A stretch of DNA of 32,383 nucleotides from a virus: IMG/VR virus record IMGVR_UViG_3300019776_001115, positions 1 through 32,383 of that record; one strand, given 5' to 3'. Both the position numbers and the translations under genes were made by a program. The notes beneath the pieces are model-generated. The model was not told where the DNA came from. It did not search any database and saw only the letters and a program-made list of their open reading frames with translations. This document shows, piece by piece, positions 4,738-21,198 of this stretch. How positions within the stretch are numbered: position 1 is the first letter of the stretch; each line of letters begins with the position of its first letter.

Positions 4738-4947
4738 ATGACCGACATTAATCAAATTCTCAATGAACGACTGGTGGATGCCCGCGAGGCAGCTCACTGC
4801 TTAAATTTGCCTATGTACCTGCTCTCACACCCGAAAGAGCGCCAGCGCATTGGTGTGCCGCACTATCGGGTCGGCAAAATGGTTCGCTTCAAGGTCAGTG
4901 AGTTGATGGACTGGTTGCAGGCGCGGGGAGATCAGTCAAATGCTTGA
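4738..4947 (+). CDS. Small helix-turn-helix protein (excisionase-like)
   Basis: A 69-residue protein: NERLVDAREAAHCLNLPMYL, then PHYRVGKMVRFKVSELMDWL. This is the layout of the HTH_17/AlpA excisionase-type DNA-binding domain, where a helix pair is followed by a beta wing ending in the (V)RF motif and a final helix. I chose ATG 4738, just 4 bases after the nuclease stop, because the domain starts there; a longer reading from 4645 would lie inside the nuclease gene. It overlaps the primase start by 8 bases. It could regulate the operon or serve as a replication or excision accessory. It is the second such small HTH in the window. Confidence 0.8.
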   Translation: MTDINQILNERLVDAREAAHCLNLPMYLLSHPKERQRIGVPHYRVGKMVRFKVSELMDWLQARGDQSNA

Positions 4948-7207
4948 TTTCAATGATAACGACTCATCTGCGCATGGAGATACAGACCAAGTCAGAGAGC
5001 AGTTACGCGCATCGCTGATCGATCGCATCGAGTCGGTATTAAGCGTTCTGTTTCCTGCGGGCAAAAGACGACGCGGGAAGTTTCTCATCGGCGACGTTCT
5101 GGGAAGTCCGGGAGACAGTCTTGAGGTCGTCATGGAGGGCGAGAAGTCTGGGCTTTGGACCGATCGCGCAACAGGCGATGGGGGCGACATCTTTAGTCTG
5201 ATTGCTGCCTCGATTGGTGCGGATGTTCAAACCGATTTCCCGCGTGTCCTGAACTACGCAGCCGATCTGGTTGGGCAGGCGCTACCCACACAAAAGCGCA
5301 AGTCCAAGAAAACGGCACCGGTCGATGAGCTTGGGCCGGCAACGGCCAAGTGGGACTACTTTGATGCGCAAGGACATCTGATCGCGGTGGTCTACAGGTA
5401 TGACCCGCCAGGTGGCAAAAAGGAGTTCCGTCCCTGGGATGCCAAGCGGCGCAAGATGGCACCACCTGATCCACGACCGCTTTATAACCAGCCTGGGATG
5501 CTCAATGTCACTCGCGTCATTCTCGTTGAGGGTGAGAAATGTGCACAAGCATTGATCGGTGCGGGAGTGACCGCCACTACCGCCATGCATGGAGCAAATG
5601 CTCCGGTCGATAAGACCGACTGGTCACCTCTCTTTGGCAAAGCGGTCATTATCTGGCCCGATCGCGACAAGCCGGGCTGGGAGTATGCGATGGCAGCAGC
5701 GCAGGCGGCACTGTCTGTCGGTGCACTGACGTGTGATGTGCTCTTGCCTCCGGATGATAAGCCCGAGGGCTGGGATGCCGCAGATGCGCTAGAGGAAGGC
5801 TTTGAGGTTGAGGCCTTCATCAACAGTGGTCCACGCATGTGCATCAAAAACCCGCACGCCATGATGCCTCAGGATGCCACGGTGTGGGCAACTGACGATG
5901 CGCTGGCTCTAGCTTTTACCTCACGCTATTCGGACGACTGGCGCTACTGCGCCTCGTGGGGCAAGTGGCTCGTCTGGACCGGTTGTCGCTGGCAGCCTGA
6001 TGAGACGCTTATGTCTCACCACCTGATTCGATCCATTTGTCGGGAGGCTGCACTCAAAGTCGACGCGCACAGGCTTGCCGCCAAGCTTCTCGCAAGTGGA
6101 ACCGTGGGGGGTGTTGAGCGTATGGCCCGTGCCGATCGAAGACACGCATCCACAAGTGATGAGTGGGATGCAGACATCTATCTGCTCAATACGCCAGGAG
6201 GCGTTGTGAACCTTCGCGCAGGCAAGACCCGCCCGCACGACAGGGGTGATCGCATGACAAAAATTGCAAATGCCACGCCTAAGGGGGATTGCCCGCAGTG
6301 GAAGGCATTTTTAAATGACGTGACGGGAGGCAACGTTCTTTTGCAGGAGTACTTGCAACGTATGGCGGGCTACTGCCTAACGGGTGCGACCAGCGCACAC
6401 GCTTTGTTTTTTCTCTATGGGACTGGCGCAAATGGCAAGTCGGTTTTCGTCAATACCTTGGCAAGCATTCTTGGAGACTACGCAACGAGCGCCCCCATGG
6501 ATACCTTTATGGATGCAAGGGGCGATCGTCACCCGACCGATCTCGCAGGGCTTCGCGGCGCGCGCTTTGTCGCGTCTGTTGAAACCGAACAAGGCAGACG
6601 TTGGAACGAGTCTAAGGTCAAGGCCATCACGGGAGGTGATAAGGTCTCGGCCCGCTTCATGCGACAAGACTTCTTTGAATATTTCCCTCAGTTCAAACTG
6701 CTGATTGCTGGCAATCATAAGCCCTCAATCCGCAACGTGGACGAGGCTATGAAGCGACGTCTGCACCTGATTCCCTTTACGGTCACGATCCCACCCGAGA
6801 GGCGCGACGGCAAGCTCACAGAAAAGCTTTTTGCCGAGCGCGATGGAATTTTGGCCTGGGCAGTCGAGGGATGCCTCGCGTGGCAACGAGAAGGTTTATT
6901 GCCGCCCGACTGTGTGCTTTCAGCCACCGAGGAGTATTTCGAGGCAGAGGATGCGCTCGGTCAATGGATGGATGAAAGCTGCGATTTAACACCTGAAGCG
7001 AAAGTTGCGTCCTCTGATTTGTACGCAAATTGGCGCGAATGGGCCGAGCGCGCAGGCGAGTACGTGGGCTCAATTAAGCGGTTTTCCGAGCTATTAGTTA
7101 CGCGCAATTTCGCGCCCACGCGACTTCACGGGGGCAAGCGGGGGTTTAAGGGTCTAGCCATACGTCCTAAGCCCTACAGCCGCAACTATTACGAGTCAAA
7201 CGAATGA
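4940..7207 (+). CDS. P4-type DNA primase-helicase (Toprim plus SF3 helicase)
   Basis: A 755-residue replication protein. The N-terminal part has a CHC2-like/DNA-binding region (DVLGSPGDSLEVVMEGEKSG, GDGGDIFSLIAAS), followed by a Toprim core (ILVEGEKCAQAL near residue 195, IIWPDRDKPG near 237). A D5_N-like region leads to the superfamily 3 helicase with Walker A GTGANGKSV near residue 494 and the sensor stretch LLIAGNHKPSIRN near 590. The C terminus carries a winged-helix tail (SIKRFSELLVTRNFAP). P4 alpha-like proteins of this design prime, unwind and bind iterons in their own origin. The candidate origin described at 7211-7310 lies directly downstream. Length and motif order are typical of a complete enzyme. 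Confidence 0.93.
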   Translation: MLDFNDNDSSAHGDTDQVREQLRASLIDRIESVLSVLFPAGKRRRGKFLIGDVLGSPGDSLEVVMEGEKSGLWTDRATGDGGDIFSLIAASIGADVQTDFPRVLNYAADLVGQALPTQKRKSKKTAPVDELGPATAKWDYFDAQGHLIAVVYRYDPPGGKKEFRPWDAKRRKMAPPDPRPLYNQPGMLNVTRVILVEGEKCAQALIGAGVTATTAMHGANAPVDKTDWSPLFGKAVIIWPDRDKPGWEYAMAAAQAALSVGALTCDVLLPPDDKPEGWDAADALEEGFEVEAFINSGPRMCIKNPHAMMPQDATVWATDDALALAFTSRYSDDWRYCASWGKWLVWTGCRWQPDETLMSHHLIRSICREAALKVDAHRLAAKLLASGTVGGVERMARADRRHASTSDEWDADIYLLNTPGGVVNLRAGKTRPHDRGDRMTKIANATPKGDCPQWKAFLNDVTGGNVLLQEYLQRMAGYCLTGATSAHALFFLYGTGANGKSVFVNTLASILGDYATSAPMDTFMDARGDRHPTDLAGLRGARFVASVETEQGRRWNESKVKAITGGDKVSARFMRQDFFEYFPQFKLLIAGNHKPSIRNVDEAMKRRLHLIPFTVTIPPERRDGKLTEKLFAERDGILAWAVEGCLAWQREGLLPPDCVLSATEEYFEAEDALGQWMDESCDLTPEAKVASSDLYANWREWAERAGEYVGSIKRFSELLVTRNFAPTRLHGGKRGFKGLAIRPKPYSRNYYESNE

Positions 7208-7210
7208 ACA

Positions 7211-7310
7211 TGGTGACGGATGGTGACAGGCTTGCTGATTAACCCCTACGCGTGCGCGTGCGCACACATATATGTGAGTTAACCGGCATATGAGTCACCA
7301 TCCGTCACCA
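7211..7310. repeat. Candidate replication origin: 17-bp inverted repeat around an alternating purine-pyrimidine tract
   Basis: TGGTGACGGATGGTGAC at 7211-7227 is repeated as its exact reverse complement at 7294-7310, giving 17-bp arms 66 bases apart. Each arm holds two GGTGAC units, so there are four iteron-like copies. Between the arms, 7247-7276 is 30 bases of unbroken pyrimidine-purine alternation (CG/TG/CA/TA steps), prone to Z-DNA or melting. The element sits between the primase-helicase stop and the RuvC-like gene. The known P4 alpha protein binds GGTGA-type iterons at its origin. The resemblance and position suggest an origin, but a transcriptional terminator or operator is not excluded. 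Confidence 0.55.
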
Positions 7311-7329
7311 CACCTAAAACGGAGTGGAA

Positions 7330-7797
7330 ATGAAGACAACAATTCTGGCCCTGGATCTGGGCACAACAACGGGCTGGGCACTTTGGAAAGACGCCCAGCT
7401 CTCAAGCGGAAGCCAACCCTTTAAGCCTCAGCGCTTCGAAGGGGGCGGGATGCGCTTTTTACGATTCAAGCGCTGGCTCTCAGAAATCAAGCAATGCTCG
7501 ACAGACATCAGCCTGGTCGTGTTTGAAGAGGTGCGCAGACATGCGGGCGTGGATGCGGCTCATGCCTACGGTGGTTTCATGGGCCAGCTGACAGCCTGGT
7601 GCGAGCATCATCAAATCCCCTATGAAGGTGTGCCTGTGGGAACGATTAAAAAGCACGCGACCGGCAAGGGCAACGCAAGCAAGGAACAAATGATTCAGGC
7701 CTTGCAGGAGCGTGGTCACAACGTTCACGATGATAACGAGGCCGATGCGATTGCGCTTTTGTACTGGGCCATTGAATTTCGGGGAGACACGCCATGA
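7330..7797 (+). CDS. RuvC-like Holliday junction resolvase
   Basis: A 155-residue RNase H-fold nuclease. Acidic catalytic positions are visible in order: Asp9 in LALDLGTTTGWAL, Glu66/67 in LVVFEEV, and Asp135/Asp139 in VHDDNEADAIALLYW. This is the pattern of phage RuvC-type resolvases, which cut branched recombination or replication intermediates before packaging. I chose ATG 7330 because GGAG lies 5 bases upstream; a GTG at 7324 would overlap that site. The stop overlaps the next gene as ATGA. Confidence 0.87.
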   Translation: MKTTILALDLGTTTGWALWKDAQLSSGSQPFKPQRFEGGGMRFLRFKRWLSEIKQCSTDISLVVFEEVRRHAGVDAAHAYGGFMGQLTAWCEHHQIPYEGVPVGTIKKHATGKGNASKEQMIQALQERGHNVHDDNEADAIALLYWAIEFRGDTP

Positions 7798-8435: not shown

Positions 8436-8579
8436 CATCAAGGGCAATGCGAGTAATAGAGCGAAAAATACGCGTGCAACACTTTGGGGTGTTTTGAGAT
8501 AAGATTTCAGCTATCTTCTGGACAGAAGTGTGAGTGGGGAAAGCAACCCCTCAATCCACTTCCTCCAACACCCAAATTC
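8436..8579 (+). promoter_or_regulatory. Non-coding leader with small hairpins between early and late genes
   Basis: This stretch lies in the longest gene-free interval of the window (8389-8624). It contains a TTGAGATAAGATTT segment near 8494-8507 that could hold a -10 element. A perfect small stem-loop CTTCTGGACAGAAG follows (8516-8529), then a GGGG-aaagcaa-CCCC hairpin (about 8536-8551). Its 3' end runs into the strong terminator at 8580. Promoter plus short structured leader plus terminator is the layout of lambda pR'-tR', where the late antiterminator acts. It could also encode a short regulatory RNA. No ORF here has a ribosome-binding site. Confidence 0.4.
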
Positions 8580-8615
8580 AACCCGCCCGATCATCATGTC
8601 TGGCGGGTTTTCTTT
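8580..8615 (+). terminator. Rho-independent terminator before the methyltransferase gene
   Basis: AACCCGCC at 8580-8587 pairs with GGCGGGTT at 8602-8609 around a 14-base loop and is followed by TTCTTTTT. It ends only about 10 bases before the methyltransferase ATG at 8625, so it should uncouple that gene from early transcription unless transcription is antiterminated. The palindromic stem could also act on opposite-strand transcripts. Confidence 0.8.
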
Positions 8616-8624
8616 TTAAAACTC

Positions 8625-9866
8625 ATGAAGCCACTGACCCTCGAGTATCGCGCAGTTGATGCGTTGATCCCCTACATTCGAAATGCCAAACAACACCCTG
8701 ATGCACAGGTTGCACAAATTGCGGCAAGCATCCGTGAGTTTGGTTGGGGGTCCCCGATTCTGGTCGATGGGAGTAACAACGTGATCGCAGGCCACGGCAG
8801 ACTTCTTGCGGCGAGAAAGCTCGGCATGAGCGAAGTACCTGTGATTTCACTGGATCACCTGACCGACACTCAACGCCGGGCATTAATCCTGGCTGACAAC
8901 AAGATCAGCGAAAACGCCTCCTGGGAAAACGATCTCCTTGGTCTGGAGTTGGCAGAACTTAAGGATGCCGGATTTGATCTGGCACTGACAGGCTTTTCAT
9001 CCGAAGAGTGGGATGCTCTCATTGCTGGCGAAGAGACCTCGGAAGATGGACTGACTGATGATGATGCCGTACCCGAGGTCACTGAAAACCCGATCTCACG
9101 CACTGGTGACATCTGGTTACTAGGTGAGCATAAGCTGATCTGTGGCGATGCAACCAAGTCTGAAGACTATCAGGCACTCCTGGGCGATGAGCTCGTTGAC
9201 ATGACCTTTACGGATCCGCCCTACAACGTGAACTACGCCAACACAGCCAAGGACAAAATGCGTGGCAAAAACCGTCCGATCTTGAACGACAACCTCGGGA
9301 TTGAGTTTGGAACCTTTTTGGTCGCTGCATGCAAGAACGTGCTCAACGTCACAAAAGGTGCGGTGTATATCGCCATGAGCTCAAGTGAGCTCGACACCCT
9401 TCAGGCTGCATTTCGTGAAGCCGGTGGTCGCTGGTCTACCTTCATCATCTGGGCAAAAAACACCTTCACCCTGGGTCGTGCCGATTACCAACGACAGTAC
9501 GAACCCATCCTCTATGGCTGGCGTGAAGGGGCTGATCATTTCTGGTGTGGCGCAAGGGACCAGGGTGACGTATGGAACATTAAAAAACCGCACAAGAACG
9601 ATCTGCACCCAACAATGAAACCAGTTGAACTGGTCGAGCGTGCTGTGCGCAACAGCAGCAAAACCAAAGATCTTGTACTGGATCCCTTCGGTGGATCAGG
9701 CACTACCCTCATCGCCTGCGAGAAGGCCGGAAGACGCGCCCGACTCATCGAGCTCGATCCAAAGTACGTCGATGTGATCGTCAAGCGTTGGCAAGAATTC
9801 ACTGGCCTGGAAGCAAAACGCGCCACGGATGGCGCGGTGTTTAGTGAGTTAAACAATGCCACTTAG
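8625..9866 (+). CDS. ParB/Srx-domain fused DNA methyltransferase (beta class)
   Basis: A 413-residue two-domain protein. Residues about 1-95 are a ParB N-terminal-like domain (ALIPYIRNAKQHPDAQVAQI, VIAGHGRLLAARKLG). The methylase domain has motif IV DPPY at residues 197-200 and the SAM-binding motif I DPFGGSGTT at about 353-361 near the C terminus. This IV-before-I order defines the beta class, which includes CcrM-like adenine methylases. I chose ATG 8625 because the domain starts there and the longer frame runs back through the terminator. No clear Shine-Dalgarno precedes this ATG. There is no cognate restriction gene, so it is probably an orphan methylase that protects phage DNA or tunes gene expression. 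The recognition site cannot be read from sequence. Confidence 0.92.
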   Translation: MKPLTLEYRAVDALIPYIRNAKQHPDAQVAQIAASIREFGWGSPILVDGSNNVIAGHGRLLAARKLGMSEVPVISLDHLTDTQRRALILADNKISENASWENDLLGLELAELKDAGFDLALTGFSSEEWDALIAGEETSEDGLTDDDAVPEVTENPISRTGDIWLLGEHKLICGDATKSEDYQALLGDELVDMTFTDPPYNVNYANTAKDKMRGKNRPILNDNLGIEFGTFLVAACKNVLNVTKGAVYIAMSSSELDTLQAAFREAGGRWSTFIIWAKNTFTLGRADYQRQYEPILYGWREGADHFWCGARDQGDVWNIKKPHKNDLHPTMKPVELVERAVRNSSKTKDLVLDPFGGSGTTLIACEKAGRRARLIELDPKYVDVIVKRWQEFTGLEAKRATDGAVFSELNNAT

Positions 9867-20796: not shown

Positions 20797-21198
20797 ATGA
20801 ATAAAACACAAGATTTTTCGAGCTACTTTCTCGCTGAAACATCTGTGGTTGATCTGGATCTGCCCAATGGAGAGCCCATGCTCTTTCAAGGCAGTCCAGT
20901 GCGCGTACACGTGCACGGGCCCGCCACCGCACGTTTTACCAAGGCAAATGAGGCAATGCAAAAGGAGGCGGCCAAACGCGTGATGGCCGCTATCGGCACT
21001 AAGGGCAAAAAGGAAGCGGAAGATAAAGACGCGGATGCCAAATTTCTAGTCGCCATTACCGACCGAATTGAGAACTTCCCTTTTCCAGGCGGGATCGATG
21101 CGATTTACCGTGAGCCCAAGCTTAAATACGTCGCTGATCAGGTGCGCTCCTTTGTAGGGGATGCGGGAAACTTCTTTGGAGTTGGAGAGAAGCCCTAA
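20797..21198 (+). CDS. Tail assembly chaperone (gpG-like), frameshift donor
   Basis: A 133-residue protein in the position of lambda gpG. It is acidic/basic and helical in the middle (KANEAMQKEAAKRVMAAIGT) and ends in VRSFVGDAGNFFGVGEKP. I chose ATG 20797 because GAAGGA lies 6 bases upstream; an ATG at 20698 would add 33 residues of doubtful sequence, although it overlaps the tube stop. Near its end, codons GGA AAC lie on the heptamer GGGAAAC (21165-21171), where ribosomes can slip -1 to make a longer fusion with the downstream frame. The G and GT products guide the tape measure during tail assembly. Confidence 0.85.
   Translation: MNKTQDFSSYFLAETSVVDLDLPNGEPMLFQGSPVRVHVHGPATARFTKANEAMQKEAAKRVMAAIGTKGKKEAEDKDADAKFLVAITDRIENFPFPGGIDAIYREPKLKYVADQVRSFVGDAGNFFGVGEKP
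21165..21171 (+). other. Programmed -1 ribosomal frameshift site GGGAAAC
   Basis: The heptamer reads G GGA AAC in the chaperone frame, the exact X XXY YYZ pattern. Lambda G-GT uses GGGAAAG. After slipping, reading continues in the -1 frame from 21171, which is open from 21138 to the stop at 21663-21665. A CTTCT/AGAAG stem (21171-21175 with 21188-21192) directly follows the heptamer, though it is short and too close to be a standard stimulator. Confidence 0.85.

Follow-up and report, generated by a model that had tools for sequence, protein, structure and literature searches.

Organization of the locus

The stretch analysed here (the window) is the 32,383-base virus record IMGVR_UViG_3300019776_001115, from which part of the genome may be missing. 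It carries an inverted element between a P4-family primase-helicase gene and a gene for a RuvC-like Holliday junction resolvase (Table 1). The left arm begins 4 bp after the primase-helicase stop (7207), and the ATG of the RuvC-like gene lies at 7330. The two arms, TGGTGACGGATGGTGAC (7211-7227) and GTCACCATCCGTCACCA (7294-7310), are exact reverse complements of 17 bp each, separated by 66 bp, and together contain four copies of GGTGAC, two on each strand. An imperfect inward continuation extends them to 33 nt with 79% complementarity. At the centre is an alternating pyrimidine-purine run of exactly 30 nt. A sequence-only reading had proposed a candidate origin here, and its coordinates and counts (17-bp arms, four GGTGAC units, a 30-nt tract at 7247-7276) were all correct on recheck, as was its statement that the element fits no protein-coding frame: no ORF of at least 60 aa crosses it in any frame.

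Table 1 Features of the element and its neighbouring genes in the window
Feature	Position	Strand	Basis or detail
P4-family primase-helicase	4940..7207	+	Weak Toprim-like match, D5_N, SF3/DUF5906, C-terminal winged helix
Coding region of the predicted C-terminal winged helix (residues 672-741), putative iteron reader	6953..7162	+	AlphaFold; iteron-distance correlation
Left iteron pair, GGTGAC at 7212 and 7222, 10-bp period	7211..7227	+	Inspected sequence
Left inner spacer, contains TGATTAAC, complementary in part to the right spacer	7228..7246	unstranded	
Alternating pyrimidine-purine tract, putative unwinding or torsion-absorbing centre	7247..7276	unstranded	Run length, ts/tv
Right inner spacer, contains GTTAACC	7277..7293	unstranded	
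Right iteron pair, inverted, GTCACC at 7294 and 7304	7294..7310	-	Inspected sequence
RuvC-like Holliday junction resolvase, downstream neighbour, not the reader	7330..7797	+	phrog_159, E 9e-36

Among the close inverted repeats of the window, only this one has arms of at least 11 bp, and the only two TGAC-N6-TGAC pairs in the window both lie in the arms. The next longest alternating run in the window is 19 nt, and in 300 first-order Markov sequences the longest run averaged 15.5 nt and reached 23 nt at most, versus 30 nt in the window. The second longest run, GTGCGCGTACACGTGCACG (20899-20917), lies within a coding ORF. Scans for tRNAs and Rfam families returned no matches, neither promoter nor terminator sites were found in a scan of positions 7100-7450, and the GC skew of the window, examined for an origin switch, does not turn at the element, which counts against the origin reading.

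The primase-helicase matches the D5_N (E 1e-35) and DUF5906 (E 1e-9) profiles, and its helicase/C-terminal part matches TIGR01613, the P4-family phage/plasmid primase-helicase model, with 352 bits against a curated cut-off of 108.7 (E 1.9e-105). The Toprim match is weak (E 0.008); in the structural model, residues 111-330 resemble the polymerase domain of DnaG (VIA Z 14). Structurally, the SaPI5 primase-helicase ranks among the closest matches to the enzyme (VIA Z 30). It also gives the family alignment its top profile match to a solved structure, over almost its full length (E 9e-70). By BLAST, P4 alpha aligns with the enzyme only in the helicase core (24% identity, E 5e-10). Residues 672-741, modelled by AlphaFold with an H-E-H-H-E-E topology and block pLDDT values of 77-90, are predicted to form a C-terminal winged helix. 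Elsewhere in the window, positions 8484-9866 encode a DNA methyltransferase fused to a ParB-like N-terminal domain (phrog_498 and ParB-like PHROGs).

Conservation of the element in relatives

The viral family set comprised 75 loci: the window and Acidithiobacillus phage AcaML1, together with IMG/VR relatives whose primases are 67-86% identical. A two-armed element directly after the primase-helicase stop was found in nearly all of them, and the longest alternating run in the locus was the central one in 72 cases. A second set was drawn from bacterial genomes and held 80 prophage loci, mostly from beta- and gammaproteobacteria; there the inverted repeat after the primase stop outscored all other blocks of the locus in about 73 cases, and the central alternating run did so in 70, although kinship among loci inflates all such conservation counts. 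GGTGAC/TGAC clusters were present at the same place in relatives, the outcome sought by a check that the sequence-only reading had proposed.

Relatives further removed, whose proteins share about 28-30% identity with that of the window, have arms made up of inward-turned tandem iterons, such as TGTGACGGGTTGTGACGGG, GGTGTAGGGGGTGTAGGG and TGTTACTTTTGTTAC; these arms beat all other 350-bp blocks of the locus in 41 of 51 R9.2-like and 34 of 52 phi105-like loci. Some relatives, for example L290, L302, L395 and L411, scored no better than controls for the element. Actinophage Yang has no comparable element after its primase gene, and in actinophages ZoeJ and Samy the primase gene is overlapped by the next gene.

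Several variants were recorded. L384 and L385 are extreme, with 33-nt arms (TGGTGACAGATGGTGACAGGTTTGCTGATTAAC and a near reverse complement) lying 23 nt apart directly past the primase stop, and with a short alternating run. The archaeal Methanoculleus virus L4768 (L197, 2737-2936) has dense direct and inverted repeats of GGGGCATATAGG just past the primase-helicase gene, inside a small annotated ORF, which look like the same kind of origin. Bordetella phage BPP-1 carries tandem inverted iterons, TTGCCTCGTTTGCCTCGTTT and AAACGAGGCAAACGAGGCAA, about 470 bp past the primase stop (L191, 1608-1711; NC_005357, 26607-26710). A stem-loop adjoining that stop has been proposed as the BPP-1 origin (PMC4234260); the tandem inverted iterons are possibly the better candidate.

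The dyad accompanies the helicase gene

All IMG/VR contigs were also scanned for GGTGACNGATGGTGAC, and 80 loci with the motif were examined. An inward-facing dyad was present in 15, and in all 15 a D5-type helicase ORF ended within 182 bp; such an ORF occurred at 2 of the 65 dyad-less loci. Among the 15 are members of the window's family; L084, L091, L093, L094, L100 and L108 are distant. The gene downstream of the dyad varied, being RuvC in L085, a terminase small subunit in L094 and an opposite-strand ORF in L093. So did the primase part: L100 has a Toprim match, and the ORF of L094 is a 462-aa helicase without a primase. Because both the downstream genes and the primase parts differ among dyad loci, the element belongs to the helicase/winged-helix part of the protein and not to RuvC.

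Beside a D5_N helicase, L108 (1746-2036) has a double version in which each side carries an outer and an inner GGTGACNGATGGTGAC site separated by 85 bp (four sites, ++--); a similar stretch occurs in L138 (2283-2573) in the opposite orientation. Two RuvC phages served as controls. By eye, the stretch before RuvC in MW202478 contains no such element. In MW202473, the gap separating the divergent RuvC-like and Toprim/VapE-like primase genes contains many GGTAGTACA-type iterons of either orientation (L336, 300-620), and the origin of this phage possibly lies upstream, not downstream, of the primase.

The arms change together as DNA

Across 29 aligned elements, iteron spacing was 9 bp in both arms (15 elements) or 10 bp in both arms (14 elements) and never mixed, a concordance of 29/29. 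The covariation score between arms was 0.237 versus 0.112 in shuffles, with none of 500 shuffles reaching the observed value, and paired base changes filled 46 double-change cells versus 17 in shuffles. Arm mismatches were A.C in 20 cases and G.U in 19, and over longer arms 84 and 56, respectively. Since the arms change together and their mismatches show no strand bias, the element is best described as a DNA dyad rather than an RNA hairpin; strand-neutral paired change would be expected from a double-stranded binding site present in two copies.

An RNA stem was rejected on the same counts, G.U not being favoured over A.C. An RNA hairpin in the primase-RuvC transcript, acting as an attenuator, processing or regulatory element, might be suspected from the strong predicted fold of the + strand (-52.6 kcal/mol, z -5.7) and from the position between co-directional genes. 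We nevertheless regard it as very improbable, as an RNA stem would not tolerate A.C and G.U mismatches equally, arm spacing is fixed at 9 or 10 bp, the element has neither an Rfam match nor a terminator-like site, and in distant relatives extra iterons lie outside a simple hairpin.

The primase-helicase C-terminus as probable iteron reader

Iteron distances between phage pairs were compared with protein distances segment by segment, with overall divergence removed. Strong correlation was confined to the last ~115 residues of the primase-helicase. For residues 691-755, the partial r was 0.86 in 28 window-family loci and 0.76 in 69 bacterial-genome loci; Mantel-type permutations, which do not model the tree, correct for shared ancestry only in part. 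Two other families peaked at the same protein end (partial r 0.39 and 0.65). RuvC, which starts 4-38 bp from the right arm, gave -0.08 and at most 0.09 in the same test. Individual pairs illustrate the pattern: the window and L004 are 92% identical over residues 301-640 and 63% identical at the C-terminus, and their iterons differ; the window and L051 have identical iterons and a 77% identical C-terminus, with 66-77% identity in other parts of the protein.

Part of the correlation could come from linkage, since the C-terminal codons physically adjoin the left arm. Linkage in place of recognition was rejected, because the right arm also goes with the C-terminus and the equally adjacent RuvC is uncorrelated. 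Taken as sequence evidence, these results indicate that the C-terminal winged helix of the primase-helicase is most likely the reader of the iterons. The tie between the candidate origin and the P4-type primase-helicase, drawn in the sequence-only reading, is thus borne out by comparison, with the iterons co-varying with the winged helix of that enzyme and not with RuvC.

Alternation rather than instability is conserved at the centre

The centre of the window element is 48% AT, and among stretches of equal length in the window, 58% have lower stability. In the window's family the centre is 42% AT with 25% of stretches weaker, and is not specially unstable, while the median alternating run is 22 nt versus 6 nt expected. 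The suggestion that the tract would melt easily was therefore not upheld; alternation is what is conserved. Substitutions within the tract gave a ts/tv ratio of 4.4 versus 0.6-1.2 in flanking parts, and although alignment scoring may slightly favour transitions, run length is independent of alignment. As the tract substitutions are mainly transitions, the alternation itself appears to be kept. It would suit Z-DNA formation, the obvious candidate, or high YpR flexibility as the alternative.

Low-GC relatives (phi105-like and R9.2-like) have centres of 76-80% AT that are among the least stable stretches of the locus, with a median of 0.3-0.4% of stretches weaker. Distant lineages with GC-rich genomes (L084, L093, L094 and L108) have alternating tracts of 19-28 nt, and the low-GC L100, with similar iterons, has a centre of 81% AT. 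On this distribution, GC-rich replicons seem to have provided for origin opening by other means. We tentatively propose, as a possibility somewhat short of probable, that in GC-rich phages of several helicase lineages a Z-prone or YpR-flexible tract replaced the AT-rich unwinding element, and that a B-to-Z or torsional switch between inverted initiator arrays starts opening. Neither this element nor Z-DNA at such origins was found described in the literature searched, mostly non-subscription papers.

Palindromy of the tract did not exceed the level set by alternation alone (median p 0.50), and a cruciform in the tract was rejected on this basis. The same result bears on a cruciform or partition-type site serving RuvC or the ParB-like methyltransferase, a role that the inverted repeat, the RuvC-like gene directly downstream and the ParB-like domain encoded in the window could evoke. 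We judge it exceedingly unlikely, given that the iterons do not co-vary with RuvC, that dyads occur beside D5 helicases with other neighbours, and that the tract is only as palindromic as alternation demands.

Proposed origin model

Judged from its sequence and comparative features, the element very probably serves a tailed phage as its replication origin, and lies immediately downstream of the gene for its own initiator. In the proposed pathway, drawn by analogy with P4 alpha, PICI Rep and pRN1 ORF904 (PMC6092414, PMC4234260), the C-terminal winged helix of the primase-helicase would bind the tandem GGTGAC iterons of each arm, as their co-variation suggests. With the iteron pairs pointing towards each other over 66 bp, two helicase assemblies would then load in opposite orientations, consistent with the symmetry of the site and with SF3 initiators in general. 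In the third and least certain step, the alternating tract may absorb negative superhelical stress through a B-to-Z flip or flexible YpR steps, and would thereby stand in for the AT-rich melting element of low-GC relatives. Finally, the SF3 domain would open the DNA, the primase domain would prime, and a host polymerase would take over, probably bidirectionally; this general outline is established for P4 alpha and is extended here to the window.

Alternatively, the primase-helicase or a Cnr-like partner could bind the element as an operator or for copy-number control, and replication would then start at some other site. P4 has the same iterons in two cis regions, ori1 and crr, so an iteron cluster does not by itself mark where replication starts. 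Yet the window, which may be incomplete, contains no second cluster (one extra match has 3 mismatches and is near chance), and there is no promoter-like site at the element. We consider this operator role quite unlikely.

Origins are unannotated in most tailed phages with P4-family primases. The present analysis provides a rule for finding them, namely tandem iterons inverted across 50-90 bp directly after the helicase gene, as well as dozens of natural iteron/winged-helix pairs usable for deriving a recognition code. It also offers a testable case in which a conserved Z-prone sequence, and not AT-rich DNA, occupies the place where a bacterial virus origin would be expected to open.

Comparison with known replication origins

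In P4, crr, a region required in cis, begins 45 bp past the alpha stop, and both P4 and the window encode a P4-family primase-helicase. The crr iterons (GGTGAACA/GTGAACA) are tandem and occur in both orientations. The type I iteron GGTGAACA is absent from the window element, which has GGTGAC with a 10-bp period instead; P4 also differs in having two 120-bp repeats, a separate ori1 and AT-rich DNA, and only the helicase core of the two proteins aligns by BLAST.

The pRN1 origin, an inverted-repeat structure of about 100 bp directly 3' of a primase-SF3 helicase-winged helix gene, is necessary and sufficient (PMC4234260). It resembles the window element as a large inverted repeat 3' of the gene, and as a dyad that stays while its sequence changes, which was also found in the window's family. 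Unlike the tandem DNA iterons of the window, pRN1 has no recognised iterons and the stem-loop itself is proposed as the signal; its initiator, ORF904, has an archaeo-eukaryotic primase. In this part of the window protein, the signals are the weak Toprim match (E 0.008) and the resemblance of model residues 111-330 to DnaG.

The phi105-like and Lacticaseibacillus R9.2-like relatives likewise have tandem inverted iterons directly after a homologous helicase gene, and TGACGGAT iterons are common to R9.2 and the window. They differ in their centres (76-80% AT) and in an NrS-1-polymerase-type domain in the N-terminal half of the protein.

PICI origins (SaPIs, EcCICFT073) lie immediately 3' of the rep or pri-rep gene, with two iteron sets around an AT-rich centre (PMC6092414). 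A further hallmark of this type is autonomous replication conferred by rep together with ori. PICIs are satellites whereas the window is from a phage, and the window has a GC-containing alternating tract (48% AT) in place of the AT-rich melting centre. In other respects the architecture agrees: the window element lies directly 3' of the primase-helicase gene in a conserved position, two iteron sets flank its centre, and the putative initiator is a primase-helicase with the SaPI5 enzyme as a top structural match.
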